Assembly (NCBI GenBank): GCA_018432955.1
Contig: JAHDSE010000130.1
Span: 1-43,664 of the forward strand
Direction: 5' to 3'
Origin: Syntrophomonadaceae bacterium
GTDB taxonomy: Bacteria > Bacillota > Syntrophomonadia > Syntrophomonadales > Syntrophomonadaceae
Length of the DNA: 43,664 nt
The notes under the pieces are model-generated. The model made no database searches. It had not been told where the DNA came from and was given only the letters and a program-made list of their open reading frames with translations. This document shows, in pieces, positions 12,714-27,920 of this stretch (position 1 is the first letter of the stretch; each line of letters opens with the position of its first letter). Made by a program: the position numbers and the translations under genes.

Positions 12714-13886
12714 ATGACTATTCCGTTATCTTCAGTTCGTGTATTGGATTTGTCCAGAGGTCTTCCAGGGCCGTTTTGTACGCAGATACTATCTGATTAT
12801 GGGGCCGAAATTATCAAAATTGAGGATCGAACCGGTGATCCGGCTCGTAGAAATCATCCCCCCATCGCAGGGGAAAGTGCTCAGTTTTTTTCGGTTAACC
12901 GCAACAAACGCAGCCTCACCCTTGACTTGAAAACGAAAGAGGGGCAGTCAATATTCAAGAAACTGCTCAGCAACAGTGACGTGCTTATAGATGGCTTTAG
13001 ACCGGGAACAATGGAAAAGTTGGGACTTGGTTACGAAATCCTCAAGGAGCTTAATCCAGGCCTGATTTACTGTTCATTAACTGCTTTTGGAAGCACCGGT
13101 CCTTTGCGTTTTAGCCCCGCTCACGATGTAAATGTCACTGCTCTGGCCGGAATAACAGAGCTGACCGGGCGTCATGATGGCCCCCCGGCTATATCAACAG
13201 TACAAATTTCTGCCTTGAGCGGGGCTCTGTATGCTGTAATCGCTGTTCTTATTGCCCTGCTTCAAAGAAAAGAAACCGGGCTTGGGCAATATTGTGATGT
13301 GGCCATGCTGGACAGTTCAATCAGCCTGCTGGCTTACACTCTGGCAGAATGGTCCGCCAATAGAAATATTCCCCAAAGGGGAAAAGAACGCTTAACCGGC
13401 AATTCTGCATATTTTAACTTGTATGAGACCAGTGACGGGAGATATCTCAGCCTTGGAGCTGCGGAAAAAAAGTTCTGGGAAAAATTCTGTTCGGGAATTG
13501 GCAAACCTGAATATATAGAAATTCATAAGGAAGAATCCAGGCAGGATGAGATGATCGAAGAAATTCAAACCATACTCAGGGGCAAGAGCCAGCAGGAGTG
13601 GATGGAAATTTTCGGTGAGGAAATATGTTTAACACCGGTATTGAATCTTGATGAAGTAAGTAAACATCCGCAGGTACAGAACCGGGAAATGATCATAAAG
13701 CTTGATAATTTCCGGGAATCAGGCATGGATTTGGCCTTACCCGGGCCCGCTATAAAATTTTCAGATATTTCCTGTCAGGAAACGTTCGAGTTTCCTCGAA
13801 CAGGCCAACACAAGCTGGAGATTCTTGAAGAGCTTGGATATACACCCGATGAAATCAAGCTTTTTATAGAAAAAGAGATTATTTAG
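12714..13886 (+). CDS. CaiB/BaiF family (family III) CoA-transferase, possibly for a dicarboxylate
   Basis: This 390-residue protein has the family III fold: VRVLDLSRGLPGPFCTQILSDYGAEIIKIE at the N-terminus, NRNKRSL, LIDGFRPG and ETGLGQYCDVAMLD. Family enzymes move CoA between carboxylic acids through an aspartyl-CoA intermediate. Aligned by the downstream TGxGQ motif, the position of the catalytic Asp (AD..xG in relatives) is Ser166 (ISALSG), which is unusual. ATG 12714 follows GAAAGGTGG. The gene is flanked by crt-hbd-thl and lies near glutaryl-CoA dehydrogenase and GcdA-like genes, so a role in activating glutarate is attractive; racemase-type activity is an alternative. Transcription appears sigma-54 dependent. 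Confidence 0.8.
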   Translation: MTIPLSSVRVLDLSRGLPGPFCTQILSDYGAEIIKIEDRTGDPARRNHPPIAGESAQFFSVNRNKRSLTLDLKTKEGQSIFKKLLSNSDVLIDGFRPGTMEKLGLGYEILKELNPGLIYCSLTAFGSTGPLRFSPAHDVNVTALAGITELTGRHDGPPAISTVQISALSGALYAVIAVLIALLQRKETGLGQYCDVAMLDSSISLLAYTLAEWSANRNIPQRGKERLTGNSAYFNLYETSDGRYLSLGAAEKKFWEKFCSGIGKPEYIEIHKEESRQDEMIEEIQTILRGKSQQEWMEIFGEEICLTPVLNLDEVSKHPQVQNREMIIKLDNFRESGMDLALPGPAIKFSDISCQETFEFPRTGQHKLEILEELGYTPDEIKLFIEKEII

Positions 13887-13931
13887 CTGCAGAGATTTCA
13901 GCTGACATATTGAAGAAGGTACTAAGTAATA

Positions 13932-14032
13932 GAGCGGAACCCGCAGGGGTTCCGCTCCCAGAATTCTTTGACCTTTACTTTTTTTGCTCGCTCTGACTTT
14001 TGACAAGAGCGAAACCCGCAAGGGTTCCGCTC
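13932..14032. terminator. Two tandem stem-loops between convergent genes
   Basis: Two copies of GAGCGRAACCCGCARGGG followed by TTCCGCTC (13932-13957 and 14007-14032) each form an 11-bp stem, the second with one mismatch. They are 75 bases apart and both are followed by CCANAATT. They separate the rightward CoA-transferase gene from the leftward thiolase gene and probably act as a bidirectional terminator. As direct repeats they may also be a dispersed palindromic element. Confidence 0.65.
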
Positions 14033-14059
14033 CCATAATTTGCTTTGAGGTTTTTACAT

Positions 14060-15256
14060 TTACATCAATTCCACGATTACCGCCGAGCCCATACCGCCGC
14101 CAATACACAGAGTGGCCAGTCCTTTTTCGCCCTGCAACTGGCGTTTCTGCATCTCATACAGCAGGGTAACCATTATTCTGGCTCCCGAACAGCCAACGGG
14201 ATGGCCCAAAGCAATAGCGCCGCCATTGACATTTACCTTTTCCATTTTGTCTTCCCATCCCAGGGTTCTGGCTACTGCAAGAGACTGTGAAGCAAAAGCT
14301 TCATTGGCTTCGATAAGGCTGATCTCATCCACAGTCAGATTGGCTTTGGCCAGTGCTTTCTGAGTGGCTGGAATCGGGCCCAGGCCCATTACTGAAGGAT
14401 CTACACCGCCAGAAGCATAGCTGACGATTTTAGCCATGGGTTTGATACCCAGCTCATCAGCCTTTTCCCTGGACATAACGATAACTGCAGCTGCGCCGTC
14501 ATTAATGCCAGACGCGTTGCCGGCGGTTACGGTGCCGTCTTTCTTGAAGGCAGTCCCCAGTTTAGCCATTTTTTCCGGGTCGGTCATACGGGGATGTTCA
14601 TCAGTGTCAAACACTTTTTCGCCTTTTTTAGTCTTGAGCACAACAGGAACAATTTCATCTTTGAAACGGCCCGATGCTATGGCTTCGGCAGCTCTAACCT
14701 GACTCTGATAGCCAAATTTATCCTGTTCCTCTCTGCTCAAGCCATACTGTTCCGCGATGTTTTCAGCGGTGATACCCATGTGATAGCCATTGAAGATTTC
14801 CCAGAGGCCGTCATAAACCATGCCGTCAATCAAATCGCCCTTATACATGTTCATTCTGTATCCCCAGCGGGCATTTGGCAGGTAATAGGGATGTGCACTC
14901 ATGCATTCCATTCCACCGGCCATAACAATATCATTGTCACCGGCAAGAATGGTCTGGGCTGCCAGGCTAATTGCCCTCAAGCCGGAAGCACATACTTTGT
15001 TTATGGTGAAAGCGGTTACTTCTTTGGGAATACCGGCATGAATCATCGACTGACGGGCTACGTTCTGCCCCTGTCCGCCTTGCAGTACACAGCCAAAGAT
15101 TACTTCCTCGATCATTTCGGGTTTAATCCCGGCCCTTTTCATAGCTTCTACCATAACAATACGTCCCAGCTCAACAGTTTTGGTATCTTTCAAACTTCCC
15201 CCAAAAGTGCCGACAGGTGTACGGCATGCGCCAACCAGTACTACTTCTTTGCTCAT
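14060..15256 (-). CDS. Acetyl-CoA acetyltransferase (thiolase)
   Basis: This 398-residue protein is a complete thiolase. It has the nucleophilic Cys89 in KVCASGL, NEAFA, His352 in LGHPVG and Cys384 in CIGGGMG. It splits acetoacetyl-CoA into two acetyl-CoA, or runs the reverse reaction. ATG 15256 follows AAAGGGGAAAC; the frame stays open upstream to 15406, but that part overlaps the hbd gene and has no thiolase similarity. It is the last gene of a crt-hbd-thl operon, the classic set for converting crotonyl-CoA to acetyl-CoA. A paired stem-loop follows at 13932-14032. All catalytic residues are present, unlike the degenerate paralogue at 31.1 kb. Confidence 0.9.
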
Positions 15257-15308
15257 ATGTATGTTTCCCCTTTCTTTTTCCTTAATAGGTTTATCTTTCT
15301 CATAATTG

Positions 15309-16157
15309 TTAGTAAACGAAGAATCCTTCGCCAGTCTTGCGTCCCAGTTTGCCGGCGCGAACCATTTTAACCAGCAAGGGGCAGGGACGATATTTGGAAT
15401 CGCCAAACTCTTTGTACAGGGTTTCCATAATCTTCAAGCATATATCCAATCCAATCATGTCGGCCAGTGCCAGCGGTCCCATGGGATGCCCGGCGCCAAA
15501 CTTCATGGAAGTGTCAATGTCTGCAGCACTGGCTACGCCTTCCATTAATGCATACATACCTTCGTTCAGCATAGGGATCAAAAGACGGTTGACAATAAAG
15601 CCCGGAGCTTCATTGATCTCAACCGGTGCTTTGCTCATCTTAAAACACATTTCTTTGATAAGATTATAAGTATCCTGGCTGGTTGATGCTCCCCGTATAA
15701 TTTCCACCAGTTTCATTGCCGGCACCGGGTTAAAGAAATGCATTCCGATTACTTTGTCAGCCCTGCCGGTCGCAGCGCCAATTTCGGTAATACTTAGTGC
15801 TGAAGTGTTGGAAGCTAAGATACATTCGGGCTTACAAATGGCATCGAGTTCTTTGAATATGGATTTCTTGATTTCCATCACTTCAACGGCTGCCTCAATA
15901 ATAAGTTCACAGTCCTTCAAAGCATCGATATCAATGGTTCCGGAAATCCTGCTCATGACTGCATCTTTGTCGGCAGCTTCCATTTTCCCCTTGTCAACCA
16001 TCTTTTTCAGGTTCTTGTCAATCCCCTTGAGACCATTGTCCACAAATCCCTGTTGGATATCCCGTAAGACAACTTGCAGGCCTGATTGGGCAGCCACCTG
16101 TACGATGCCGGCTCCCATGGTACCGGCACCCAGTACCCCGATTTTTTTGATTTCCAC
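15309..16157 (-). CDS. hbd: 3-Hydroxybutyryl-CoA dehydrogenase
   Basis: This 282-residue protein has the NAD fold [12 protein letters not shown] at residues 7-18, the catalytic His region [32 protein letters not shown] and the C-terminal [14 protein letters not shown] signature. It oxidises 3-hydroxybutyryl-CoA to acetoacetyl-CoA with NAD+. The start is GTG 16157 with GGGGGGAAAA upstream; no ATG fits. It lies 18 bases after crt and 52 bases before the thiolase gene. Length and motifs are those of the clostridial Hbd family. The paralogue at 34.5 kb is slightly longer and serves the second beta-oxidation cluster. Confidence 0.92.
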
Positions 16158-16175
16158 TTATTTTCCCCCCAGTCT

Positions 16176-16985
16176 TTAATTTTTATAATAGTATCCTACA
16201 GGAAATAAACCCTGCTCCCGCAAGAAGTATTTACCTGTAAAATCTGCTTTCTTCTTTTCCAGCAAAGCACCCCTGAATTTCTCCTGCCCGGTCGCAGCAA
16301 AACAATCCTGTGAGAAGTCCAGATCAATATTGATTTTCCGGTCAAGATACCTTGCAGCCTTGCAGAGCTTAACGGCCAGCGGGCCTTTGCTGGCAATCTG
16401 ACTGGCTATGCCTCTAACGTATTCCATCATGTCTTCATATTCAACAATATGATTGACCAGACCAATCTGCAGAGCTGCATTGGCATCTATTATGTCGGCC
16501 GAACAGAGAAGCTCTCTGGCCATACCTGAACCAACTACACGCGCCAGCCGCTGGGCACTCTCAAAAGCGGGGAAGATGCCCAATCCTGCTTCGGTTTGCT
16601 CGAATATGGCCTCTGTGGAGGCTATGCGAAAGTCACAGCACATAGCCAGTTCACAACCTCCGCCCAGAGCAAAACCGTGAACAGCGGCAATGACCGGCTT
16701 TTCCAGGGATTCAATCATTTTGAACACCTGTTGTCCAAGTGTGGCAAAACTGCGGATTTCCACGGCAGACAGGGAGTATTTGCAGTCAACTCCGGCAGCA
16801 AAGGCCTTGTCACCGGCTCCAGTAAATATCAGAACATCAACATCATCACTATCACGAATAATTTGGACAACTTGCATTATCTCCATCAGGGTAGCCTTGT
16901 TCAGTGCATTCAGAACTTTTGGCCTGTTTATCTTCAACACCGCTACTCTATCCCGTATTTCCAGCAAGATATTCTCGTAGGGCAT
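16176..16985 (-). CDS. crt: Enoyl-CoA hydratase (crotonase), divergent
   Basis: This 269-residue crotonase-fold protein hydrates crotonyl-CoA. Both catalytic Glu positions are recognisable: GGGCELAMCCDFRIA and QTEAGLGIFP. It departs from the usual motifs in two places. The oxyanion/CoA loop reads AAGVDCK instead of the common AGADI/AGGDL form, and the normally Gly-rich PGxGGTQRL reads PAFESAQRL. About 17 extra residues follow the usual C-terminal end. ATG 16985 follows AAAGGGGGGAGAAAG. It leads the crt-hbd-thl operon, with a leader of about 300 bases starting at a sigma-54 promoter at 17300-17315. The position makes crotonase activity likely; another crotonase-fold reaction is possible. Confidence 0.8.
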   Translation of the reverse strand: MPYENILLEIRDRVAVLKINRPKVLNALNKATLMEIMQVVQIIRDSDDVDVLIFTGAGDKAFAAGVDCKYSLSAVEIRSFATLGQQVFKMIESLEKPVIAAVHGFALGGGCELAMCCDFRIASTEAIFEQTEAGLGIFPAFESAQRLARVVGSGMARELLCSADIIDANAALQIGLVNHIVEYEDMMEYVRGIASQIASKGPLAVKLCKAARYLDRKINIDLDFSQDCFAATGQEKFRGALLEKKKADFTGKYFLREQGLFPVGYYYKN

Positions 16986-17184
16986 CTTTCTCCCCCCTTT
17001 CACTTTATTACCATTCTTCTTTCCAACCTGCAGTTGAAAACTTTTTCTCCTGAACCCTCAGCAATATCGCCTTCCTTCCAAGATTATCAACTTCGGCATT
17101 GGATGCGAACACAGAACCCGGATATAAAATATGAACAGTACTTTCTTGATACTGCTTTATTCAGTACATATACTCAGGGAAAAT

Positions 17185-17228
17185 AAAAAAAAGGATATCT
17201 ACTGTTCTATAAATTTATAGAACAGTAG
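17185..17228 (-). promoter_or_regulatory. Perfect 30-bp palindrome plus T8 tract in the crt leader (possible attenuator)
   Basis: Positions 17199-17228 form a perfect inverted repeat with a 15-base arm, CTACTGTTCTATAAA. On the leftward transcript it is followed after six bases by eight T residues (17192-17185), the layout of an intrinsic terminator. It lies between the sigma-54 promoter at 17300 and the crt start at 16985, so it would act inside the leader. It could instead be a DNA operator. Confidence 0.5.
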
Positions 17229-17299: not shown

Positions 17300-17315
17300 A
17301 GCAATAATCATGCCA
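17300..17315 (-). promoter_or_regulatory. Sigma-54 (-24/-12) promoter for crt-hbd-thl
   Basis: Leftward TGGCATGATTATTGCT differs from the TGGCACGN4TTGCW consensus at one base. The operon start codon is about 315 bases downstream. A divergent sigma-54 promoter lies at 17911. The spacer between them holds inverted repeats but no convincing gene. Confidence 0.65.
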
Positions 17316-17707: not shown

Positions 17708-17870
17708 TTGTTTGGTCATACATACAACTGTACGGCAAACAGCACAGTTGGTTTTACCTGTTTGCAACAATTATTGTATTACACATATTGGTAATCCTTG
17801 CAGCCAGACAGCAGCTTGCTTCGTTGTTTACCATACTATACCTGCAAAGCCAGTTTTCATTAAACAACGA
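17708..17870. promoter_or_regulatory. Candidate enhancer (UAS) region between divergent sigma-54 promoters
   Basis: Three elements stand out. TTGTTTGGTCATAC at 17708-17721 matches ATGTTTGCTCATAC at 42793-42806 in 12 of 14 bases. GCAAACAG at 17735-17742 is inverted as CTGTTTGC at 17758-17765. TCGTTGTTTA at 17821-17830 is inverted as TAAACAACGA at 17861-17870. The distances (40-200 bases upstream of the -24 element at 17911) suit binding sites for a sigma-54 activator. Confidence 0.4.
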
Positions 17871-17910: not shown

Positions 17911-17926
17911 TGGCATAATATTTGCA
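17911..17926 (+). promoter_or_regulatory. Sigma-54 (-24/-12) promoter for acd-gcdA
   Basis: TGGCATAATATTTGCA has the invariant GG and GC at correct spacing and a full TTGCA. The leader of about 160 bases contains GTGAGGGGGGATG at 17957-17969, a 13-base string repeated in the leader behind the promoter at 25993. Confidence 0.7.
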
Positions 17927-18096
17927 TAATTAGTGATTAAACTGCTACTTTTGATTGTGAGGGGGGATGTCTTAAGCTACTGAATATAGCAAAAAATCAA
18001 TTAAGGCAGTTATTTAAAAATATTGCTTCGATACAAATCCACCTGCAGAACAAATCGCCCTTAATGGAATTATGTATCGCTTTAGGAGGTAAGATT

Positions 18097-19254
18097 GTGA
18101 ATTTTGAATTAACAGATGAACAAAAAATGGTTCAGGATATGGCAAAAAACTTTGCCGAAAAGGAAATTGCCCCTTATGTTGACGAGGATGAAGAAAACCA
18201 TCATTACCGCAGAGAAATATTGACTAAAATGGGTGAGTTGGGTCTTCTGGGTTGGAGCTTGCCTGAGGAGTACGGCGGAAACGGGATGGGCTGGATGGAA
18301 GCTGTATTGGCTCTTTATGAAATCGCCAAAGTTCATACCTCGTGGCGTTTGAGCATAAGCGGCAACAACTGGGGCCCGGCAATGACCATCAACCAGTATG
18401 GAACCCCGGAGCAAAAGGAAAAATACATTCCTAAACTGCTCAGTGGTGAACATGTCGGCAGTTTTGCCATAACTGAAGCCAACTCGGGTTCAGATGTAGC
18501 CAGCATGAAGACCTTTGCCCAGGACAAAGGCGACCACTGGTTAATGAACGGCAGTAAAATGTGGATATCCGGCGGCCATGCATCAGATGTCGGACTCGTT
18601 TATGCGGTTACGGAAAAAGGTGCCGCCCACAAAGGATTATCCTGCTTTATTGTTGATTACAACAATACCCCTGGAATAACCAGAATCCCAATACACACAA
18701 AAGTTGGTATGTGGCCGGCTCCCACATCTGAGCTTGTATTTGAAAACGCTGTAATACCCAAGGAAAACCTCCTGGGTCCCTTGAACCAGGGCTTTCCCAT
18801 TTGCATGTGGCAGTTAAACAATACCCGCATGGGTTGTGCCACCGGTTCAGCAGCACTATCGGCTGCATGCCTGGAAGGTTCTGTTCAGTACGCTAATGAA
18901 CGTACTCAGTTTGGCAAACCCATTGGTAAATATCAGATGATTCAGCAACAGATTACCGAAATGAAATTGGAAGATGAAGCTGCAAAATATCTGGTTTACC
19001 GTGCCGCCTGGTTAAAGGACAAAGGGCTCCCCAATCAGCAAGCTGTATCAATGGCCAAATTGGTTGGCTGCCAGGCTGCGGTTCACGCTGCCAATATGGC
19101 TATGAAAATCTATGGTTCATATGGATACTCTACTGAATACCCCTGTGGAAGATGGCTGCGTGATGCCAAACAGTTTGAGACCCTTGAAGGAACCTCTAAT
19201 ATGCATATGCAGATAATTGCCAATATCGAGCTGGGCTATCAGCCTAACAGATAG
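18097..19254 (+). CDS. Acyl-CoA dehydrogenase, probable non-decarboxylating glutaryl-CoA dehydrogenase
   Basis: This 385-residue flavoenzyme has the acyl-CoA dehydrogenase signatures ITEANSGSD (125-133), ERTQFGKPIG and the catalytic Glu364 in LEGTSNMH. GTG 18097 follows TTAGGAGGTAAG and is preferred over the upstream in-frame ATG at 18064. Two features point to glutaryl-CoA. Arg84 in TSWRLS aligns with the Arg of human glutaryl-CoA dehydrogenase that binds the free carboxylate (GYRSA). The next gene encodes glutaconyl-CoA decarboxylase. Residues linked to decarboxylation in that family differ (Ala77 for Glu, Leu85 for Ser, Leu363 for Tyr), so the expected product is glutaconyl-CoA. The alignment is from memory. 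Electrons would pass to electron-transferring flavoprotein, not encoded here. Confidence 0.75.
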   Translation: MNFELTDEQKMVQDMAKNFAEKEIAPYVDEDEENHHYRREILTKMGELGLLGWSLPEEYGGNGMGWMEAVLALYEIAKVHTSWRLSISGNNWGPAMTINQYGTPEQKEKYIPKLLSGEHVGSFAITEANSGSDVASMKTFAQDKGDHWLMNGSKMWISGGHASDVGLVYAVTEKGAAHKGLSCFIVDYNNTPGITRIPIHTKVGMWPAPTSELVFENAVIPKENLLGPLNQGFPICMWQLNNTRMGCATGSAALSAACLEGSVQYANERTQFGKPIGKYQMIQQQITEMKLEDEAAKYLVYRAAWLKDKGLPNQQAVSMAKLVGCQAAVHAANMAMKIYGSYGYSTEYPCGRWLRDAKQFETLEGTSNMHMQIIANIELGYQPNR

Positions 19255-19313: not shown

Positions 19314-21059
19314 ATGAGCGAATATGGTTTTTCATTACATCCCTATTTCAAGGAAATGCCAGGCATAGGCAAAGCCCTGAGAAAGCAGAACAAGGCTAAT
19401 ACTGAAGAACTGAAAAAGGTTGAAGAAGAAATAAAGGCCGAAGTTGAAAGGGTTAAAAACTCTGGCAAATCCACAGATGCTATGAATAATAAAGGAGAAT
19501 GGGACGTATGGCAGCGCCTGGATTATCTGGTAGATCCAGGTACCTGGCATCCTCTGCATACCATTTATGATCCGAGTCGCAATGAAGAAGGCAGTACCGG
19601 AGTTATCGATGGTCTGGGTAAAATTTCGGGAAAATGGGCGGTAATAATTGCTTCAAACAATAAAATCATGGCCGGGGCCTGGATAGCAGGCCAGGCTGAT
19701 AATATACTCCGCGTTACAGATATTGCCAAAAAATTGCACATACCTCTGGTCTGGGTACTGAACTGCAGTGGTGTAAAACTCATGGAACAGGAAGAAGTAT
19801 ATGCCAACCGCAGAGGCAATGGAACTACATTTTACCGGCATGCTGAATTAGAACAGCTGGGTATTCCTGTAATAGTCGGAATATATGGAACCAATCCTGC
19901 TGGCGGCGGTTACCACGGCATCAGCCCGACAACACTGATAGCTCACAAGAATGCTAATATCGCTGTTGGCGGTGGCGGCATCGTGGGCGGTATGTCTCCC
20001 AAAGGATATTTCGATGACGAAGCCGCCAACGAACTGATCGAGGCCACCCGTCAATTCAGCGCTACCCCGCCGGGAAGGGTGGAAATTCATTATAACGGCA
20101 CCGGGTTTTTCCGGGAAGTATGCGATACCGAAGAGGCGGTTCTGGACAAGATTAAAAAGTATATGCAGGATATGCCGGCATATCATCCGGACTTTTTCCG
20201 TGTCGCTGACCCGGTTGATCCCAAGTTCCCAGCCGAAGACCTTTACAGCCTGGTACCTGCCAACCAGAGAAGGACCTATTCCATGCCCGAGGTTTTGGCC
20301 AGACTGTTTGATAATAGTGAACACTTTGAATACAAACCTGATTACGGCCCCGAAGTATATTGCGGCCTGGCAAAAATTGACGGTTATCTATGCGGAGTAA
20401 TCGGCAATAACCAGGGTGCCCTGGGTGCTGAATATCCCGAATATACTGATAAATATGCAGGCATGGGAGGCAAACTGTATCGCCAGGGCCTTATTAAAAT
20501 GAGCGAATTTGTTACCTTCTGCGGCCGTGACCGCATTCCCATGGTATGGCTTCAAGACACCACCGGCATTGATGTTGGAGATATCGCAGAACGAGCCGAA
20601 CTTCTCGGTCTTGGTCAGTCACTTATCTATTCCATTGAGAGTACCGATCTTCCTATGATGCTTGTTGTACTGAGAAAAGGCACCGCTGCCGCGCACTATG
20701 TTATGGGCGGACCCAACGCCAACAACAACAACATTTTCACTCTGGGAACTGCGGCAACCGAAATCTACGTTATGCACGGTGAAACCGCAGCAGCAGCTTC
20801 CTTTTCACGCCGGCTGGTTAAGGAGCAGGATGCCGGCAACTCTCTGGAACCCGTTATAGAAAAAATGAATGATATGGTCAAAGATTATTACGACAAATCC
20901 CGTCCAGCGTATTGTGCGAAAACAGGCTTTGTTGATGAAGTAGTGAATATGAGCGATCTTAGAAATTATTGCAAAGCATTTGTTGGGGCTGCTTATCAGA
21001 ATCCAACCAGTATATGTCCCCCCCATCAAATGATCACCCCCAGGATAATCAAGGGCTAA
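19314..21059 (+). CDS. gcdA: Glutaconyl-CoA decarboxylase carboxyltransferase subunit alpha
   Basis: This 581-residue protein is a two-domain biotin-dependent acyl-CoA carboxyltransferase. It closely resembles GcdA of Acidaminococcus fermentans (587 residues) along its length. Shared segments include YVLNCSGVK-like VWVLNCSGVK, GIYGTNPAGGGYHGISPT, GKLYRQGLIKM, WLQDTTGIDVGD, LRKGTAAAHYVMGGP and the C-terminal SICPPHQMITPR. It moves CO2 from C4 of (E)-glutaconyl-CoA to biotin, leaving crotonyl-CoA. ATG 19314 follows AAAGGAGATAAAGC, 59 bases after the glutaryl-CoA-dehydrogenase-like gene, so the two are one operon. The biotin carrier (25.3 kb) and membrane pump (26.7 kb) are in separate units. 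A stem-loop terminator follows at 21094. Confidence 0.9.
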   Translation: MSEYGFSLHPYFKEMPGIGKALRKQNKANTEELKKVEEEIKAEVERVKNSGKSTDAMNNKGEWDVWQRLDYLVDPGTWHPLHTIYDPSRNEEGSTGVIDGLGKISGKWAVIIASNNKIMAGAWIAGQADNILRVTDIAKKLHIPLVWVLNCSGVKLMEQEEVYANRRGNGTTFYRHAELEQLGIPVIVGIYGTNPAGGGYHGISPTTLIAHKNANIAVGGGGIVGGMSPKGYFDDEAANELIEATRQFSATPPGRVEIHYNGTGFFREVCDTEEAVLDKIKKYMQDMPAYHPDFFRVADPVDPKFPAEDLYSLVPANQRRTYSMPEVLARLFDNSEHFEYKPDYGPEVYCGLAKIDGYLCGVIGNNQGALGAEYPEYTDKYAGMGGKLYRQGLIKMSEFVTFCGRDRIPMVWLQDTTGIDVGDIAERAELLGLGQSLIYSIESTDLPMMLVVLRKGTAAAHYVMGGPNANNNNIFTLGTAATEIYVMHGETAAAASFSRRLVKEQDAGNSLEPVIEKMNDMVKDYYDKSRPAYCAKTGFVDEVVNMSDLRNYCKAFVGAAYQNPTSICPPHQMITPRIIKG

Positions 21060-21093
21060 ACAAATACGCTCTCACTCTCTCACCTGCAAATGT

Positions 21094-21431: not shown

Positions 21432-23552
21432 ATGGAATCGGTAAATTTATCCAATTCTTTTTTTCCTAACTCGCTAATCTATGTCCATGATTTGATGAAT
21501 ACAGATTTTGTAACTGTTCATCCGGATGATTCTTTGCTGACCGTAACCCGAAAATTTACTGAAACTAAAATAGACACTATTCCGGTTGTCGATGAAAAAG
21601 GTAAACTACTGGGAGTTTTTCCCCGAAGGCGGCTATACAAGGCCATTCTGGAAAATAAGAGTCTGGATGTCCCCTGTAGTTCATACATGGTTACATCTCC
21701 TTATGCTCTTTCTTCAGATCTCACCTATGACCAGCTTACTTTCATAATAAAATTGAACCAGACCCAGGTAGGAACAGTTCCTATTGTAGACAAGGACAAT
21801 GTTGTTGTCGGAACCGGTGGAAAAGTTGAATATATGAGAGCTACCGTGAATATGATAAGCAAAGCCAAAGCCCACCTTGACTCCATCTTTCAGGCTATGA
21901 ACGAAGGGATTATAGCTACCGACGAAAAAGGACAGATCATAAGCATTAATCGGGCAGCCGAAAATTTGTTTGGATTAAATGCAGATGATGTGTTCGGGCA
22001 AAATATACAAGAGGTATTTCCAGAAATTGATTCCGATAATGCCCGCCGTCTCAATGTTAAACGCATCATAAATTCTGTTCCGGTTATGATGAATCAGGTG
22101 CCTCTCATCGAAGATGATACCGTTAGAGGAATGAACTACGCCTTTGTTGATTTATCCAGTTTGGAGAAAATAGCGGCTGAATTGGAAAGTGTTAAAAAAT
22201 TACAGGTAGGTCTTCAGGGTGTCCTGAGTGCTTCTTCAGATGGTTTGATACTGACTGACCGGAACGGATTAATTACTTTTTACAATAAGGAAGCAGTGAG
22301 TTTACTGAAAAATCCGCCTGAAACACTTATTGAGCAGCCAGTAGAAAATTATCTGGGAAACCGTACAGCCATTAATGTTGCTAAAACTGCTATGTCTGAG
22401 GTAGAGGTTTGCACCATCGATGGCAAAAACTGCATGGTTTCCTATGTTCCTATAAACTTTGAGGAAGCCAACTTCCCGATGGGCGTAGTTGTTACGATAT
22501 ACCGGGAAGATAATTCCATGTCCGATGAAATGGCCCGAAAATGGTTCTCTCTGCAGCAACAGGTTAAATACTACAAAACTGAACTTGAAAAACAGGGACA
22601 TACTAATGCAGCTTTTAGTAATATAATTACCGAAAATCCTGCTTTTATTAGTTTAAAAAATGAAGCAGAACGCGTCGCCCGCAGCACTTCAACAGTCCTC
22701 CTCACCGGGGAGAGCGGCGTGGGCAAGGATATGTTCGCCCGTGCACTTCACGCTGCCAGCAAACGTGCCCGACGTCCGTTTGTAAAGGTCAACTGTGCTG
22801 CCATACCCGAAACTCTTTTGGAATCGGAACTTTTTGGCTATGAGCCAGGTTCTTTTACCGGAGCATTAAAAAAGGGCAAACCGGGATATTTCGAGCAGGC
22901 CCATGAGGGAACAATTTTTCTGGATGAAATCGGTGAAATGCCTCTATCCATTCAGGTTAAAGTTCTGCAGGCTTTACAGGAAAAACAATTCATGCGCGTT
23001 GGCGGAACCAGTACCCAAACGGTGAATGTCAGAATAATTACTGCTACCAACCGTGATTTGCGTGAGGCCATGGCTCATGGAGAATTCCGGGAGGATCTCT
23101 ATTATCGTTTAAATGTAATAGAATTTCATCTGCCGCCACTGCGTTCAAGGCCCGAGGATATACTTCCTTTGGCGGAAATGTTTATAGAAAAGTACAACAG
23201 CATCCTGGGCACCTTCGTCACCGGGCTTACACCTGAGGCTCGCAATATTTTGACCTCTTATTCCTGGCCGGGGAATATCAGAGAACTGGAAAATGCTATA
23301 GAAAGGGCGGCCAACTATGTTTGGGAAGGTCAGATTGGTAAAGAGCACCTCCCGGCTCAGATATATAAAAACAACAATATCAGCCAAACCGAACCAGGAA
23401 GCCCCTCTTTATCTTCGCTGGATGATGTTGAAAAAAACATCATCCTGGAAGCCCTGGAAAATACTAAAGGAAACAAAAGTGCTGCCGCCCGCCTGCTCAA
23501 AATCAGCCGTTCATCATTATATGAAAAACTGGCCAAACATGGGATTAGTTAG
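21432..23552 (+). CDS. Sigma-54-dependent activator with CBS pair, two PAS domains, AAA+ and Fis-type HTH
   Basis: This 706-residue regulator is built in order from a CBS pair (about 18-140), a PAS domain (about 145-240), a second PAS domain (about 255-360), an AAA+ sigma-54 interaction domain (about 395-635) and a Fis-like helix-turn-helix (about 665-706, GNKSAAARLLKISRSSLYEK). Walker A is GESGVGKD (426-433) and Walker B is TIFLDEIGE. The sigma-54 contact loop reads GSFTGA (473-478) rather than the usual GAFTGA. CBS pairs often bind adenine nucleotides, so it may sense energy charge as well as a PAS ligand. It sits between acd-gcdA and the other gcd genes and is the obvious candidate to control the -24/-12 promoters here. 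Confidence 0.9.
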   Translation: MESVNLSNSFFPNSLIYVHDLMNTDFVTVHPDDSLLTVTRKFTETKIDTIPVVDEKGKLLGVFPRRRLYKAILENKSLDVPCSSYMVTSPYALSSDLTYDQLTFIIKLNQTQVGTVPIVDKDNVVVGTGGKVEYMRATVNMISKAKAHLDSIFQAMNEGIIATDEKGQIISINRAAENLFGLNADDVFGQNIQEVFPEIDSDNARRLNVKRIINSVPVMMNQVPLIEDDTVRGMNYAFVDLSSLEKIAAELESVKKLQVGLQGVLSASSDGLILTDRNGLITFYNKEAVSLLKNPPETLIEQPVENYLGNRTAINVAKTAMSEVEVCTIDGKNCMVSYVPINFEEANFPMGVVVTIYREDNSMSDEMARKWFSLQQQVKYYKTELEKQGHTNAAFSNIITENPAFISLKNEAERVARSTSTVLLTGESGVGKDMFARALHAASKRARRPFVKVNCAAIPETLLESELFGYEPGSFTGALKKGKPGYFEQAHEGTIFLDEIGEMPLSIQVKVLQALQEKQFMRVGGTSTQTVNVRIITATNRDLREAMAHGEFREDLYYRLNVIEFHLPPLRSRPEDILPLAEMFIEKYNSILGTFVTGLTPEARNILTSYSWPGNIRELENAIERAANYVWEGQIGKEHLPAQIYKNNNISQTEPGSPSLSSLDDVEKNIILEALENTKGNKSAAARLLKISRSSLYEKLAKHGIS

Positions 23553-23573
23553 CAGTTTTCTTCGAAAGCCTCT

Positions 23574-24875
23574 TTATTTCTGTTCTCCATTATTTTCCTT
23601 GCTTAGAAAGAAAAATCTCCCGGGGGTTCGCCGGACAAATACTATGCAAAAAACCGCCAAAAGCGAAAGCAAGGCCAGTAATTTCCAGGCTGCACTGTAG
23701 GAATATACCGGATCGTATAGACGAGCCACTAAAATCGGGCCAATAGCTCCCCCCAACAACCCGGACATGGTTATTGTCCCCCAAATTTTACCCATGGATT
23801 TTACTCCAAAGCGGTCTGCTACAACAGCTGACAGAATTAGGGCCGCTCCGTGAGCAGCACCAATAATCACAACCCACAATAGGATCATCTGATATCCTCC
23901 GGGATTGAAGGCGAAAATCAAGCATCCCAGACAGAAAAGGGCATAAGCAACAATAAGCATAAACTTCCGATCCTTCGTCATGTCTGCCAGCCATGCCCCG
24001 CCTACTCCAGCTACCGCTCCAATCAGACCGGTATAACCAAAAAGAGTCGCGGCTTTCATACGGCTCAGCCCCATATCGCACATGGCCATAACTGCGTGGT
24101 TGGTTATACCATACCAGGTGGCCAAATAAAACAAATAAGACAAAAGAAGCAACCAGAATTCACGGGTTGCTATCGCTTCCTTAAAAGACCAGTTGCGGCC
24201 ATGCCAAATTGAACTTTTATCCAAGTCGGTCTTCGCCTTTTTAATCAGCTCGGCTTCGTCGGCACTCATTCCGTCAATATATTGACCTACATCCTGCGGA
24301 TGGTCTTTAGCCAGCAGACCTACCAGCACAATAACTATCAGTCCGGTTACTATCCCCAGTCCGGTTACCGCATTACGCCAGCCATATGCTTCCATTAAAT
24401 ATGCCAATAACGGGTTGAAAATGGCCAGGCCGACCCCGGTTCCCACTCCCACAATGGCTGCTGCCAGACCTCTTTTACGGACAAACCAGCGGGATATCAT
24501 GGTAGTGTTAACCACCATGCCTGCCCCAACCGCTGCCAGAGAAAATAATATTCCGTAAGAAAGGTAGATGCTGAACAAGCTTTGCGCCTGTCCAAAAATG
24601 GTCAGGGCAACAGCCATTAAGAAAGCACCTGACAGGATCATCTTTTTTGGTCCGAAGCGATCCACCAAAGCACCTCCAAAAGGCTGTAAAAAAGCCTGGC
24701 AGAGTATGCTGAGAGAAAATACGCTGGTAACCATGGCTCTGCTCCATCCAAATTCATCCAGTAAGGCCCCGAATAAAGTACCGAAACAGAACTTATTGCC
24801 GTAAATAATGGTTATTACAATAAACCCTATCAGAGTGATAACCCACCCATAGTAAAACCTTGATAAAAGTCTCAT
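23574..24875 (-). CDS. MFS transporter of the oxalate/formate or monocarboxylate type
   Basis: A 433-residue membrane protein with about 12 helices in two halves and a hydrophilic central loop near residues 200-225. FYYGWVI at the N-terminus, the loop-2 motif GALVDRFGPKKM and the matching second-half ADMTKDRKFM place it in the major facilitator superfamily, closest to the OFA/MCT carboxylate branch. ATG 24875 follows GGGGATTTATTG; the TTG just before it has poorer spacing. It is convergent with the activator gene (21 bases between stops). Its place among glutaryl-CoA and glutaconyl-CoA genes suggests uptake of a dicarboxylate or export of a product acid. The substrate is inferred from context only. 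Confidence 0.75.
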   Translation of the reverse strand: MRLLSRFYYGWVITLIGFIVITIIYGNKFCFGTLFGALLDEFGWSRAMVTSVFSLSILCQAFLQPFGGALVDRFGPKKMILSGAFLMAVALTIFGQAQSLFSIYLSYGILFSLAAVGAGMVVNTTMISRWFVRKRGLAAAIVGVGTGVGLAIFNPLLAYLMEAYGWRNAVTGLGIVTGLIVIVLVGLLAKDHPQDVGQYIDGMSADEAELIKKAKTDLDKSSIWHGRNWSFKEAIATREFWLLLLSYLFYLATWYGITNHAVMAMCDMGLSRMKAATLFGYTGLIGAVAGVGGAWLADMTKDRKFMLIVAYALFCLGCLIFAFNPGGYQMILLWVVIIGAAHGAALILSAVVADRFGVKSMGKIWGTITMSGLLGGAIGPILVARLYDPVYSYSAAWKLLALLSLLAVFCIVFVRRTPGRFFFLSKENNGEQK

Positions 24876-25109
24876 CAATAAATCCCCTTCCCCAGGATTT
24901 CGAAACTATAGCCGGATCATGCCCATATCATGACCTCGAACCATATAATCCGCCAACCTGGGTGACCAAGATCCAGCCATCAGGCATTCTTATAACGATA
25001 TTCTCAATTAATTGCGAATTGCGGCTCGAAACTGCACATGTTCATAACTGTCTGGAAAAGCCACAGCAAAGATCACCAATTTATATATCAGCTTGCGGCA
25101 TCATAATTA

Positions 25110-25125
25110 TGCAATTGAGTTTCCG
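25110..25125 (-). promoter_or_regulatory. Possible sigma-54 promoter for the MFS transporter
   Basis: Leftward CGGAAACTCAATTGCA has GG and TTGCA at correct -24/-12 spacing but a poor -24 flank. It is about 235 bases upstream of the transporter start. Otherwise 24879-25185 holds no recognised gene. Confidence 0.3.
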
Positions 25126-25185
25126 GGCGTGTCCTTCTGCTGATGATAATCATTTTATTAGCTTGTTCTTATCCGGCTATAAGAT

Positions 25186-25223
25186 CTAATGCCTGTAGGC
25201 CATAGACTGCCTGCAGGCATTAG
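25186..25223 (-). terminator. Stem-loop downstream of the biotin carrier gene
   Basis: CTAATGCCTG pairs with CAGGCATTAG (10 bp). It follows the leftward biotin carrier gene by about 87 bases but has no strong T run, so termination is probable rather than certain. Confidence 0.5.
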
Positions 25224-25309
25224 GTTTAACAAATCTTATTTCATTTATTTCAGTATTAAATGCTACTTAGCCATGTAAAACATATCTCATTCATATTAAC
25301 ATTTGTCTA

Positions 25310-25522
25310 CTACTCAAGAACGGCTATAACAGCCCCTTCGTCAATACGGTCGCCAACCGCAACTTTGATTTCTTTTACAGTCCCATCTTCATCGGGGAAA
25401 ACGGGGTTTTCCATTTTCATGGCTTCAATAATCATAATTTCGTCATCTTCAGTCACCTGGTCGCCAACCTTACAGTTAATTGCTAATACTTTACCCGCAA
25501 TCGGGCTTTCTACATTCGCCAT
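25310..25522 (-). CDS. gcdC: Minimal free-standing biotin carrier, probable glutaconyl-CoA decarboxylase gamma
   Basis: This 70-residue protein is just one biotinyl domain, with EAMKMENP and Lys36 as the biotin site. It lacks the N-terminal region and the Ala/Pro linker found in classical GcdC (about 145 residues) and in the second carrier of this window (133 residues at 6.2 kb). ATG 25522 follows GGAGGTTAG. It has its own sigma-54 promoter at 25679-25694, back to back with the promoter for the small-subunit/GcdB-like operon, which argues that it works with that pump and with GcdA. How so short a carrier reaches both partners is an open point. Confidence 0.8.
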   Translation of the reverse strand: MANVESPIAGKVLAINCKVGDQVTEDDEIMIIEAMKMENPVFPDEDGTVKEIKVAVGDRIDEGAVIAVLE

Positions 25523-25678
25523 TTTCTAACCTCCAATAAATAATTTATTTTTGTAATCCATAACCCTTAATATTAGTCACTGTTTTAAACAATTCTTATT
25601 CTTGAAACCCCCTTTTGTGAATACTAGGCAATGAGCCAGTGTTGATTAATTGATCCAATGCTTATCAATTATAAATAA

Positions 25679-25694
25679 TGCAACTACTATGCCA
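25679..25694 (-). promoter_or_regulatory. Sigma-54 (-24/-12) promoter for the biotin carrier gene
   Basis: Leftward TGGCATAGTAGTTGCA has GG and TTGCA at correct spacing and differs by only three bases from the acd-gcdA promoter. The start codon is about 157 bases downstream. Confidence 0.65.
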
Positions 25695-25864
25695 AAATCA
25701 GAATGATAACTAAAATCTAAAACTTCAGTTATTTATAATTTGGCTTGAAATTAATGTTTATATCCATTACTGCTCTGGCAAAAATTATCCGCATTCGATT
25801 ATTTTGCCGGCATTGATCGGTGCAGCGTTAGTAATGGCGACATTTCTTAAATATATCTTGTATG

Positions 25865-25885
25865 CCTTACCATACACTTGTAAGG
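25865..25885. promoter_or_regulatory. Inverted repeat midway between divergent sigma-54 promoters
   Basis: CCTTAC pairs with GTAAGG around CATACACTT. It lies about 110-170 bases from both the 25694 and 25993 promoters, and its TTACCATAC core resembles TTTACCATAC in the 17.8 kb region, so it is a candidate activator site. No gene is recognised in 25695-25992; a 70-aa leftward frame at 25962-26174 looks spurious. Confidence 0.35.
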
Positions 25886-25992
25886 TTTTTAATACACTTT
25901 TTTTTGCCTGACAGCTTGCAAAATACATAATAAACTATTCCATTAAGCACTTCACATTATTTTATATCCAATATACCCTTCTTCCTTTAAGT

Positions 25993-26008
25993 TGGTACGT
26001 TTTTTGCA
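25993..26008 (+). promoter_or_regulatory. Sigma-54 (-24/-12) promoter for the Na+-pump operon
   Basis: TGGTACGTTTTTTGCA differs from the consensus at a single base. GTGAGGGGGGATG follows at 26031-26043 as in the acd-gcdA leader, and could open a 19-codon leader frame at 26041-26100. A weaker -24/-12 match, TGGTACAAAAAATGCC, lies at 26167-26182. The first recognised gene starts at 26430. Confidence 0.65.
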
Positions 26009-26429
26009 AATTAAAGGGACGGGCGTGAAAGTGAGGGGGGATGACATCCAGGTTATTCTTTATACCGCCTTTTTTAAAAGCAATACATGTGGGAGAATAG
26101 TATATCCCCAAATTAACCAATAAAGTTCGCTTCCAGCGGTTATTAAGGCTTATGCTCAAGTATTTTTGGTACAAAAAATGCCAATACTGTTATCAGCCCT
26201 ATCACGTAGCAGTTGTTGTAGATAATTGTGGACAAAAAATAATTTAATACTGATCTGTGGCCAATTTAGCCTTGCTTTAAGTGCTGGGACGGTGATTAGT
26301 GAGAGACCCGGATATTGGATTATATTTTTTCTTGTTTCAAGGTGGGATTCTTACTGATTTGCACCAGACAACAACAGCTCAGGTTTTTTTAATTAGGTGA
26401 TTTTTATGACAGGATAGGAGGAAAATAAT

Positions 26430-26522
26430 ATGTTCACGACAACACAACTCATGGTTGGCGGTGCTGTTCTTGCACTGGTTATTATAGCTTTTGTGATACT
26501 CGTCAGAAAAGAATTACAATAA
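26430..26522 (+). CDS. 30-residue single-span membrane peptide of the Na+-pump operon
   Basis: This is a tiny frame with an excellent ribosome site (AGGAGG, eight bases before ATG). The product is MFTTTQLMVGGAV followed by LALVIIAFVILVRKELQ: a polar N-terminus, one membrane helix of about 20 residues and a basic end. It is the first gene of a three-gene unit with a 47-residue membrane peptide and a GcdB-like pump, with gaps of 25 and 17 bases. It matches no family recognised here. Its place suggests an accessory subunit of the pump, perhaps part of a split GcdD-like anchor. The case rests on ribosome site, spacing and helix rather than homology. Confidence 0.6.
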   Translation: MFTTTQLMVGGAVLALVIIAFVILVRKELQ

Positions 26523-26547
26523 ATTTTCTAATTTAGGAGGGGATAAA

Positions 26548-26691
26548 ATGGATTCGATTACACTGGTACTTCAATTTTATGGGCTGGGTATTATTATATC
26601 CTTTTTGCTCGCGGTTACGATCAAAGCAATGTTGGGGACTATCCGCTTGTTCTCCCGCGATAAATCGGAAGAAGTACAACACGCAGACTAG
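26548..26691 (+). CDS. 47-residue OadG-like membrane peptide of the Na+-pump operon
   Basis: The product has one N-terminal membrane helix (about residues 6-29, VLQFYGLGIIISFLLAV) and a short charged tail (RLFSRDKSEEVQHAD). This is the outline of the gamma/delta subunits (OadG, GcdD) of Na+-pumping decarboxylases, but those are normally 80-115 residues and the one at 6.6 kb is 115. ATG 26548 follows GGAGGGG. The gene lies 25 bases after the 30-residue peptide and 17 bases before the GcdB-like gene. It probably anchors GcdA or the biotin carrier to the pump. The assignment comes from position and shape. Confidence 0.65.
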   Translation: MDSITLVLQFYGLGIIISFLLAVTIKAMLGTIRLFSRDKSEEVQHAD

Positions 26692-26708
26692 AAAGTGAGG
26701 ATAGGATA

Positions 26709-27920
26709 ATGGATTTAATGTATTTGTTTCAGGGTATAGGCACCTTTTTTGAAATGGAGACACATCTAGCCATAGCAAGAGTAATTTTAATATTTCTTGG
26801 GATAGCCCTTGTTTTTCTGGGAGCCAAAAATATTTTGGAACCCCTGGTCATGGTACCAATGGGATTTGGTATGGCAGCCGTAAATGCAGGTATGCTTTTC
26901 TTAAGTGATACCAAGATAGGCACCCTCGTAGTTGACCCTTTGGTTTCCGACATTCCCGGTTTGATATCTGTTCTGCAGATTGATTTTTTGCAGCCCGTAT
27001 TCACCTTTGCCTTCAGCAATAATCTGATCGCCTGTATTGTTTTCATGGGTGTCGGGGTGCTCTGCGATGTCGGCTATCTTTTGAAATATCCTTTTACCTG
27101 CATGCTCATAGCCTTGTTTGCAGAGCTGGGTACCATTGTCACCTACCCCATTGCCATAGCTATGGGGCTTCCTCCCGCGCATGCGGCTGCAGCAGCTATC
27201 GTTGGTACTGCAGATGGTCCTCTGGTTCTGTTTTCATCACTGATGCTGGCTCCGGAAATCTTTGTTCCAATTACAGTTATTGCCTATCTTTATTTGAGCC
27301 TGACCTACGCTGGTTACCCATATATCATTAAGGCAATGATTCCCAAGGAATACAGAGGAGCAAAAATTAAAACAAGCAAGAAAACGGTTGAAGTAAGTTC
27401 CCATGAAAAATTGGTTTTTTCGATAGTAGGCTGCACGATTTTATGCCTGCTGTTGCCGGCAGCTACTCCACTGCTGTTAAGCTTTTTCCTCGGTGTAGCC
27501 ATTAAGGAATCAGGGATAACCAAATACGTTACTATGATTGAATCAACTTTCTTATATGCCGCTTCCTTTTTCCTGGGTTTGATGCTGGGTGTCTTATGTG
27601 ATGCCAACACCATTTTAAATCCGGTTGTTGCCCCACTACTGTTTCTCGGTATTCTTGCCCTGACCCTTTCTGCGGTCGGCGGAGTCATTGGCGGCTACTT
27701 CATTTATTTTATCAGCGGCAAAAATTTCAATCCCACTGTAGGTATCGCCGCTGTATCCTGTGTACCCAGTACAGCTAAAATTGCCCAGAAAGAAGTCAGC
27801 AAAGCAAAAAGATCCACTATCATTCTGCAATGGGCCATGGGTGCGAATATATGTGGTGTGTTGACCAGCGCTATTCTCATGGGAATTTATATCACGGTCA
27901 TACCAATGCTTGGCAAGTAA
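26709..27920 (+). CDS. gcdB: Na+-translocating decarboxylase beta subunit, probable glutaconyl-CoA decarboxylase beta
   Basis: This 403-residue polytopic membrane protein belongs to the OadB/GcdB/MmdB family. The Na+-coupling Asp is kept in VGTADGPLVLF, and NPTVGIAAVSCVP keeps the N-x3-G-x4-S pattern. It is more diverged from the family norm than the copy at 5.0 kb: the N-terminal 60 residues and the GTADGPL and CVPSTAK segments differ. ATG 26709 follows GTGAGGATAGG. It is the third gene of the unit with the two miniature membrane peptides and is driven by a sigma-54 promoter. With GcdA (19.3 kb) and the 70-residue biotin carrier it would form a complete sodium-exporting glutaconyl-CoA decarboxylase. 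Assignment to that substrate is from context. Confidence 0.85.
   Translation: MDLMYLFQGIGTFFEMETHLAIARVILIFLGIALVFLGAKNILEPLVMVPMGFGMAAVNAGMLFLSDTKIGTLVVDPLVSDIPGLISVLQIDFLQPVFTFAFSNNLIACIVFMGVGVLCDVGYLLKYPFTCMLIALFAELGTIVTYPIAIAMGLPPAHAAAAAIVGTADGPLVLFSSLMLAPEIFVPITVIAYLYLSLTYAGYPYIIKAMIPKEYRGAKIKTSKKTVEVSSHEKLVFSIVGCTILCLLLPAATPLLLSFFLGVAIKESGITKYVTMIESTFLYAASFFLGLMLGVLCDANTILNPVVAPLLFLGILALTLSAVGGVIGGYFIYFISGKNFNPTVGIAAVSCVPSTAKIAQKEVSKAKRSTIILQWAMGANICGVLTSAILMGIYITVIPMLGK

Follow-up and report, generated by a model that had tools for sequence, protein, structure and literature searches.

Candidate genes for the conversion of glutaryl-CoA to crotonyl-CoA

The stretch of DNA analysed here (the window, 43,664 nucleotides) is the entire contig C148 of a Syntrophomonadaceae bacterium whose genome measures 1.98 Mb and is 67% complete. 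Its proteins were assigned with Pfam profiles, with NCBIfam/TIGRFAM models and their cutoffs, and by comparison with solved PDB chains. This analysis revealed; (i) a glutaryl-CoA dehydrogenase of the non-decarboxylating type, Acd (18097-19254, plus strand, 385 residues); (ii) GcdA, the carboxyltransferase subunit of glutaconyl-CoA decarboxylase (Gcd; 19314-21059, plus strand); (iii) a bare biotin carrier of 70 residues (25310-25522, minus strand); (iv) two single-helix micro open reading frames (micro-ORFs) of 30 and 47 codons (26430-26522 and 26548-26691, plus strand); (v) a MadB-type carboxybiotin decarboxylase, or beta subunit, of the OAD_beta family (26709-27920, plus strand). These genes probably belong to a catabolic regulon for glutaryl-CoA, in which GcdA would work with a MadB-type pump through the steps proposed below. 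The chemistry of the pathway is already known; what appears new is the proposed hybrid Gcd with a MadB-type beta subunit, a bare carrier and micro-ORFs. In the portions of the literature that the search covered, no description was met of this gene set in Syntrophomonadaceae, nor of a Gcd with a MadB-type subunit.

The GcdA call of the original prediction is borne out by matches over the full length to the chains 1PIX (E 1.1e-237, residues 6-580) and 3GF3 (E 7.5e-235, residues 6-578), behind which the next best chain follows at E 4.3e-43. The PF01039 match scores 333 bits, and the protein falls among the GcdA-type carboxyltransferases of Gcd. Its closest named relatives come from Syntrophomonas sp. 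DTU019 (92% identical), Syntrophomonas sp. UBA4807 (90%) and UBA4911 (84%), and remoter ones from a deltaproteobacterial assembly (69%) and Paradesulfitobacterium ferrireducens (67%). By these matches the source, an uncultured relative of Syntrophomonas, very probably belongs to Syntrophomonadaceae. The acd and gcdA genes adjoin each other in the window and in nine of the 11 related gcdA loci (G024, UBA4807, L026, G008, G040, G017, G031, G016 and G014; G numbers stand for genomes and L numbers for loci), the exceptions being G021 and Paradesulfitobacterium, and the linkage therefore exceeds chance.

The solved chains closest to Acd are 3MPI and 3MPJ, the non-decarboxylating glutaryl-CoA dehydrogenase of Desulfococcus multivorans; the match to 3MPI, called glutaryl-CoA dehydrogenase, has an E value of 3.8e-104, ahead of all other chains among the matches listed. 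The start at 18064 given in the list of open reading frames is probably wrong and the true one a GTG at 18097, located behind AGGAGG and giving a protein of 385 residues, as long as those of several relatives. Wischgoll and co-workers (2009/2010) reportedly traced the separation of the decarboxylating from the non-decarboxylating type to a Tyr-to-Val exchange before the catalytic Glu. In the window protein Leu363 precedes the catalytic Glu364, no Tyr being present there, and the Arg for the distal carboxylate is kept as Arg84 in HTSWR, aligned with the Arg of 3MPI. The glutaryl-CoA-dehydrogenase-like enzyme of the original prediction is thereby accounted for. A Leu or Val was read at this place in all 11 distinct gcdA-linked acd genes (Leu in L106, L107, L041, L108-L112 and L025; Val in L026 and L156). 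The enzyme resembles that of Desulfococcus multivorans in the closest structure, the non-aromatic residue before Glu and the carboxylate-binding Arg, and differs in that Leu replaces Val in the Syntrophomonadaceae proteins read. Homology and active-site pattern support the view that Acd would remove two hydrogens from glutaryl-CoA without decarboxylation, yielding glutaconyl-CoA.

Three genomes, G017 (contig C133), G021 (C31, L114) and G032 (C102, L113), encode a further Acd-like dehydrogenase (63-66% identical) at a distance of about 3 kb from another Carboxyl_trans gene (more than 620 bits). Leu-Glu-Gly was read in L113 and L114, and these genes possibly represent a parallel system for another dicarboxylic acid.

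A membrane decarboxylase of the Na+-pump type had been predicted as well, and the protein encoded at 26709-27920 belongs to that family; its description as GcdB-like did not hold. The window beta scores 498 bits with TIGR03136 (MadB, cutoff 596.9) and 183 bits with TIGR01109 (the general Na+-pump beta, cutoff 190.6), which leaves it outside the GcdB/OadB-type model. Its homologues in G024, G031, G016 and G009 reach 503-519 bits with TIGR03136 and 194-196, just above the cutoff, with TIGR01109. The beta subunits adjoining the gcd carrier in G040, G021, G017 and Paradesulfitobacterium, and that of an oxaloacetate-type (oad) operon elsewhere in the window, give the reverse picture (453-512 bits with TIGR01109, 162-183 with TIGR03136). 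A tree of 17 beta proteins separates the MadB type from the OadB type with a support of 100/100 and pairs the window protein with that of G024 (97/99), inside a clade of five Syntrophomonadaceae proteins (99/99) separate from the MadB of G197, which passes the cutoff, and from that of G381. TIGR03136-like genes are rare, occurring in nine of 398 sampled genomes of the phylum (E<=1e-60) and passing the cutoff in one. A role of the window beta in a malonate decarboxylase was set aside, as no mad genes were found among the window proteins scanned and the score lies under the equivalog cutoff.

The partner of GcdA is very probably this MadB-type beta, as judged by comparative genomics. The genomes G024 (100% complete), G031 (99%) and G016 (98%) each contain a single OAD_beta-family gene, which is of the MadB type, and their only Carboxyl_trans matches are GcdA (split over contigs in G016) and two half-profile genes resembling acetyl-CoA carboxylase. 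The MadB-type subunit would serve GcdA because, in these three relatives, it is the sole beta beside the sole carboxyltransferase that is not of the acetyl-CoA carboxylase kind. In G024 the carrier unit and the micro-ORF/beta unit are divergent, as in the window, and acd-gcdA lies on a separate contig; in G031 carrier-acd-gcdA and micro-ORF-beta are located about 2.2 kb apart on opposite strands.

The biotin carrier, predicted earlier and recovered here with PF00364 (7.1e-18), contains the conserved MKM lysine in the motif EAMKMENP and would take the role of GcdC. It consists of the biotin domain only, with neither anchor nor linker, in an open frame of only 71 codons. The gcd-linked carrier frames of nine relatives comprise 72-82 codons, whichever beta type is present, and a mad-like locus of G381 also encodes a bare carrier (74 codons). 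Genes for a biotin ligase, BioY and an ECF transporter are situated near carrier and beta in G024 (L160 13202-16114), and a biotin ligase gene near the carrier in G017 (L161 7889-8776). The nearness of biotin ligase and BioY to the pump genes in G024, and of biotin ligase to the G017 carrier, was counted in favour of the proposed regulon.

Both micro-ORFs, missed in the original prediction, precede the beta gene, each with a ribosome-site-like AGGAGG. The 30-codon frame (MFTTTQLMVGGAVLALVIIAFVILVRKELQ) recurs before the MadB-type beta in G024, G009, G031 and, by tblastn, G016, and the 47-codon frame in G024, G031, G009 and G016; further short helix-like frames were read by eye before the MadB-type beta of G167, G067, G413 and G197. 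Codon comparison leans towards coding, position 3 differing most in 16 of 16 pairs and position 2 least in 15, with one tie, for frames that are short and pairs that are not independent. The Pfam search of both window micro-ORFs gave nothing significant, and the 50-residue delta proteins of two relatives resemble OAD_gamma with scores below the cutoff. The 30- and 47-residue helices would probably act as small pump subunits.

According to PMC7145394, the Na+-translocating Gcd of Acidaminococcus fermentans and Clostridium symbiosum (GcdABCD) also has a separate carrier and membrane decarboxylase; the window GcdA is homologous over its full length. The differences relate to the beta subunit, the carrier, the small subunits and the gene organization. 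The window beta is of the MadB type instead of the GcdB/OadB type; the carrier is a bare protein of 70 residues, whereas GcdC is described there as carrying, besides its biotin domain of 70 residues, an Ala-Pro linker and an anchor at the N-terminus; the small helices lack the cytoplasmic part described for GcdD, in which a helix and a linker are followed by a C-terminal part that presumably extends to GcdA; and the genes are split into separate units with sigma-54-like sites. Neither the anchor and Ala-Pro linker nor the cytoplasmic part of GcdD was found at the locus, a longer GcdD elsewhere in the genome not having been sought.

In the proposed mechanism, GcdA would transfer the carboxyl group from glutaconyl-CoA to the biotin of the 70-residue carrier, as its strong homology indicates. 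The untethered carrier may then diffuse to the MadB-type membrane subunit, which would split carboxybiotin and export Na+, with the two helices as putative small subunits. The chances are about even that this constitutes a tether-free Gcd, in which soluble GcdA and a free 70-residue carrier shuttle the carboxyl group to a MadB-type pump with two micro-subunits of 30 and 47 residues. If so, Na+ decarboxylases would be modular, with a constant carboxyltransferase and a beta subunit that is exchanged among the Oad, Gcd and Mad systems. The micro-ORFs and the bare carrier offer a testable case for the minimal parts of such a pump.

Sigma-54-like sites and a paired operator

Shared sigma-54 control of the separate units, as originally proposed, is supported by predicted sites before six units and by a paired operator. 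Twenty window units were scanned for TGGCAYN5TTGCW with at most one mismatch, in the correct direction and within 600 nt upstream. Six of them carry a site: the family III CoA-transferase (12596-12611, plus strand, TGGTATACTTATTGCA), crt-hbd-thl (17300-17315, minus strand, TGGCATGATTATTGCT), acd-gcdA (17911-17926, plus strand, TGGCATAATATTTGCA), the biotin carrier (25679-25694, minus strand, TGGCATAGTAGTTGCA), the micro-ORFs and beta (25993-26008, plus strand, TGGTACGTTTTTTGCA) and the butyryl-CoA:acetate-type CoA-transferase (42689-42704, minus strand, TGGCACGAATGTTGCG). The first is the weakest, with one mismatch to this consensus and two to TGGCACN5TTGCW. Sites occurred in 59 of 4000 shuffled upstream regions and in 289 of 4000 random 600-nt stretches of the window, the latter including the sites themselves. 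The Y of the consensus was picked after inspection of a first scan with TGGCACN5TTGCW, which gives eight window sites at up to one mismatch, five before pathway units and three inside genes. Twelve of 20 upstream regions in relatives have a perfect site, among them those before acd in G024, UBA4807 and G017, three have one mismatch and five have more, two of these five belonging to internal control genes.

The paired operator comprises two TGT-N12-ACA palindromes 20 bp apart (TGTN12ACAN2TGTN12ACA). The window contains three perfect copies, all intergenic: between the divergent crt and acd units (17709-17746), between the divergent carrier and pump units (25859-25896; at the same place in G024, L160 9972-10009) and before the butyryl-CoA:acetate-type CoA-transferase (42770-42807; at the same place in G024, G040 and G016). 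In each of the two divergent gene pairs, a single operator stands between outward-facing sigma-54-like sites. No paired operator was found in the window near the family III CoA-transferase, though its promoter-like site is present. At up to two mismatches the window gives seven matches, against a shuffle mean of 1.24, and none of 100 shuffles reaches seven; a search with the single palindrome is weaker (six matches, mean 1.83, two of 100 shuffles reaching six).

Sixteen perfect operators were found in 35 largely non-overlapping loci (549,215 bp, shuffle mean 0.1), loci that had been chosen around pathway genes. Eleven lie at most 900 bp upstream of a gene for Acd, the carrier, a micro-ORF, the CoA-transferase or a sigma-54 activator, and a twelfth (L039 44-81) precedes by about 490 bp the G031 carrier gene, which is part of the neighbouring locus L038. 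The remaining four have no pathway gene assigned: L158 7749, with just a weak crotonase match 744 bp off, L163 2938, and L160 12512 and 12869, which sit between beta and the biotin gene cluster of G024. The motif was found via shared 5-mer inverted repeats and derived from 19 upstream regions including the window sites, hence the window sites are not independent of it. Half of the 16 operators lie outside the derivation regions, and four of these eight (L030 8195, L032 15651, L039 44 and L159 8619) have a pathway or activator gene downstream.

The gene at 21432-23552 (plus strand) encodes a sigma-54-dependent activator with a CBS-PAS-AAA+-Fis architecture (PF00571, PF00989, PF00158, PF02954), the nearest named family being PrdR (NF041552, 502 bits, cutoff 795). 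Sites, activator gene and common operator together have the make-up of a sigma-54 regulon at the level of sites. This activator probably acts at the paired operator and would switch on the scattered units through it. A second sigma-54 activator gene, at 43091-43663 and cut by the contig end, is a competing candidate. In G024 a longer homologue of the first adjoins the CoA-transferase gene and is preceded by a paired operator of its own (L030 8195-8232). Between crt and its sigma-54-like site there is also a long inverted repeat without mismatches (TACTGTTCTATAAATTTATAGAACAGTA, 17200-17227), which may be either a terminator or an operator.

Source of glutaryl-CoA and fate of crotonyl-CoA

The remaining parts of the predicted pathway, a family III CoA-transferase, a carboxylate-type carrier and crt-hbd-thl, were all recovered in the window by profile matches. 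The family III (CaiB-type) CoA-transferase (12714-13886, plus strand, PF02515 357 bits) is a candidate for glutarate activation; its nearest solved chain is 9br6, called succinate--hydroxymethylglutarate CoA-transferase, and a homologue of 68% identity lies about 18 kb from gcdA in G024. A second candidate is the butyryl-CoA:acetate-type CoA-transferase (41209-42555, minus strand), whose homologue follows beta in G031 and G016. As a candidate it is no weaker than the family III enzyme, given the paired operator before its gene and the position of its homologue next to the pump subunit in these two genomes. Either enzyme could make glutaryl-CoA in the first step. A carrier of the major facilitator superfamily, of the oxalate/formate-lactate type (23574-24878, minus strand; PF07690; NF049980 166 bits, cutoff 320), stands beside the activator, as it does in G024 and UBA4807. 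In G016 a CitMHS-type transporter gene (L159 10223-11086), with the micro-ORFs and beta following it in the same orientation, is a candidate dicarboxylate carrier.

The last steps would be carried out by the minus-strand products of crt (short-chain enoyl-CoA hydratase, 16176-17003; PF00378 180 bits; NF004475 279 bits, cutoff 394), hbd (3-hydroxybutyryl-CoA dehydrogenase, 15309-16157; NF004474 447 bits, passing the cutoff of 408) and thl (acetyl-CoA acetyltransferase, 14060-15406; PF00108/PF02803). The 5' end of the thl frame overlaps hbd, its true start lying further in. By homology these enzymes are expected to convert crotonyl-CoA to two acetyl-CoA, and either this or a partial conversion to butyrate is possible.

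Of the glutarate-to-acetyl-CoA pathway put forward in the original prediction, the course from glutaryl-CoA through glutaconyl-CoA to crotonyl-CoA and CO2, and on through crt-hbd-thl, is upheld by sequence, conserved neighbourhoods and the shared regulatory signature. The GcdB type gave way to a MadB type, and glutarate is a putative external growth substrate, both CoA-transferases lying below specificity cutoffs. The CoA-transferase assignment is likewise tentative. It is possible, though rather unlikely, that the same enzymes form a lower pathway, in which glutaryl-CoA would arise from longer dicarboxylates, aromatic acids or lysine instead of glutarate uptake. The window region 30565-39397 is filled with beta-oxidation genes and the carrier proteins have no assigned substrate, which agrees with such a route, as do sources that connect the degradation of aromatic compounds or benzoyl-CoA with genes for the non-decarboxylating dehydrogenase and gcd (PMC5852087, PMC13101534, PMC6129605). 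There, obligate anaerobes are described as using a non-decarboxylating dehydrogenase and a Na+-dependent decarboxylase, acd shares a contig with gcdBC in a benzene culture with Peptococcaceae-dominated transcripts (PMC5852087), and EtfAB adjoins the dehydrogenase in the genome of a member of the Desulfobacterota that degrades benzene (PMC13101534). Against this stand the family III CoA-transferase gene near gcdA in the window, G024 and G021, and the fact that a paired-operator unit encodes a CoA-transferase.

Glutarate uptake is further favoured by the family itself, in which NCBI taxonomy places Pelospora glutarica, reportedly a glutarate fermenter. For glutarate fermentation by strain WoGl3 / Pelospora glutarica, the same reaction chain is said to have been proposed from enzyme assays, and the literature search found no gene set for it. 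The window would supply candidate genes for a process known from enzyme assays, in a family with a known glutarate fermenter.

The partner of GcdA and ion coupling

The distribution of the beta types was surveyed in 54 genomes of the family, with a GcdA threshold of E<=1e-60 and contig-edge fragments in G027 and G032 uncounted. GcdA occurs in 12 genomes and the MadB-type beta in five, with an overlap of four, which counts in favour of the proposed regulon, as does the G167 contig described below. Besides these four, six GcdA genomes contain only the OadB type (G008, G014, G017, G021, G364 and G439; the betas of G008 and G014 are in pieces, and those of G364 and G439 were typed solely from an identity of about 30% with the window beta) and two show none. 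In G167, an 83% complete genome of a different family, one contig carries on a single strand, from its end, the last gcdA codons, an acd fragment, a 131-residue delta-like protein and a carrier with an N-terminal extension, hence not bare, followed by a short helix frame, a MadB-type beta (61%), crt and acd (57%). The acd fragment (L156 9073-9261) follows the gcdA end and is itself followed by the delta-like gene; an intact acd lies downstream, and L166, on another contig, holds one more gcdA-acd pair. The fragment may be a decayed duplicate, a strain mixture or an assembly artefact.

Several observations weigh against the proposed regulon. Model cutoffs are missed by the window beta (the MadB equivalog), by Acd (416 bits with NF045552, its top NCBIfam model, cutoff 470), by the butyryl-CoA:acetate-type enzyme (TIGR03948, 520 bits, cutoff 675) and by the family III CoA-transferase, which reaches no NCBIfam equivalog cutoff (mesaconate CoA-transferase 232 of 700, succinate-glutarate CoA-transferase 203 of 750). 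The Leu/Val pattern also occurs in Acd paralogues not beside a close gcdA (Leu in L113 and L114, Val in L115, the latter from a genome without close GcdA). The whole-window total of loose sigma-54-like sites is ordinary (37, shuffle mean 27, six of 100 shuffles reaching 37), and among the loci examined the full thl-hbd-crt set adjoins acd solely in the window. The gcdA piece beside beta in G167 is short, some 35 codons at the end of the contig, and a longer piece, with its own acd directly after, lies on another contig; these pieces are 86-94% identical in DNA to the first, and the second pair would therefore be a duplicated module or a strain mixture. No beta was seen in the GcdA genomes G432 (80% complete) and G438 (88%), and G009 has the carrier, the micro-ORFs and beta, but no GcdA was found; since the search of this genome gave no Carboxyl_trans gene of any kind, the assembly may have a gap. 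Of further genomes with a MadB-type beta, G067 and G413 have no close GcdA, and in G388 its neighbours are a carrier gene and an OadA-like gene (L154, L155, L157). A MadB-type beta alone is hence no proof of Gcd, and these occurrences suggest that beta subunits have been swapped between Na+ decarboxylases. Finally, the ATP synthase c subunit reads AFIETLTIY, with Met at the place of Gln32 (by eye), the position at which Na+-type rotors carry Gln, a reading that fits either ion, and the window encodes a second beta, of the OadB type, at 5026-6174.

The second beta belongs to a complete Na+-decarboxylase operon of the oxaloacetate type (5026-8350), encoding OadB, a 146-residue carrier, a gamma-like protein and OadA without a fused carrier domain; the operon is also present in G021 (L165 5644-8962), with an 88% identical beta. 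That GcdA pairs with this OadB-type protein, the MadB-type subunit serving another decarboxylase, is quite improbable. Relatives without a MadB-type beta (G040, G021, G017, G008, G014 and Paradesulfitobacterium) do have an OadB-type beta adjoining the 70-residue carrier, and the window genome is only 67% complete. However, the second beta sits within its own operon with gamma, carrier and OadA, and this operon is kept in G021, whose gcd carrier has a separate adjoining beta. No OadB-type beta exists in G024, G031 and G016, and the paired operator and sigma-54-like sites link the carrier and the MadB-type beta to acd-gcdA. Pairing with the oad-operon beta was accordingly set aside, on account of its own operon and the lack of an OadB-type beta in the three near-complete relatives, and the MadB-type beta is retained as the partner of GcdA.

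For this subunit, family membership and residues would favour Na+ over H+ coupling. Alignment with Salmonella OadB shows Glu40, Asp203, Ser382, Asn412 and Ser419 conserved as Glu44, Asp169, Ser350, Asn380 and Ser387. An H+-coupled or uncoupled beta, whose decarboxylation would pump no Na+, is very doubtful: Arg304 and Asn311, reported as essential in Salmonella OadB (PMC7274780), are replaced by Tyr273 and Ser279, and the Asn412 equivalent is variable within the MadB-type clade, but all five residues above are kept in the window beta, and the cutoff-passing MadB of G197 lacks Arg304 and Asn311 equivalents too and has Gly at the Asn412 place. Because that protein lacks both, their loss says little and was set aside as an argument against Na+ pumping.

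Na+-translocating malonate decarboxylases of the Malonomonas rubra MadB type share with the window the beta type (TIGR03136), the bare carrier of about 70 residues, as in the mad-like locus of G381, and a short helix-like frame, read by eye before madB in G197. In contrast, GcdA replaces the malonate acyl-carrier machinery in the window, and its beta stays short of the MadB cutoff and does not fall into the clade of G197 and G381. The window genes suggest that biotin-dependent Na+ pumps may exchange their membrane half between systems and keep the substrate half unchanged, and annotation by the beta subunit alone, here as "malonate decarboxylase", would therefore mislead.

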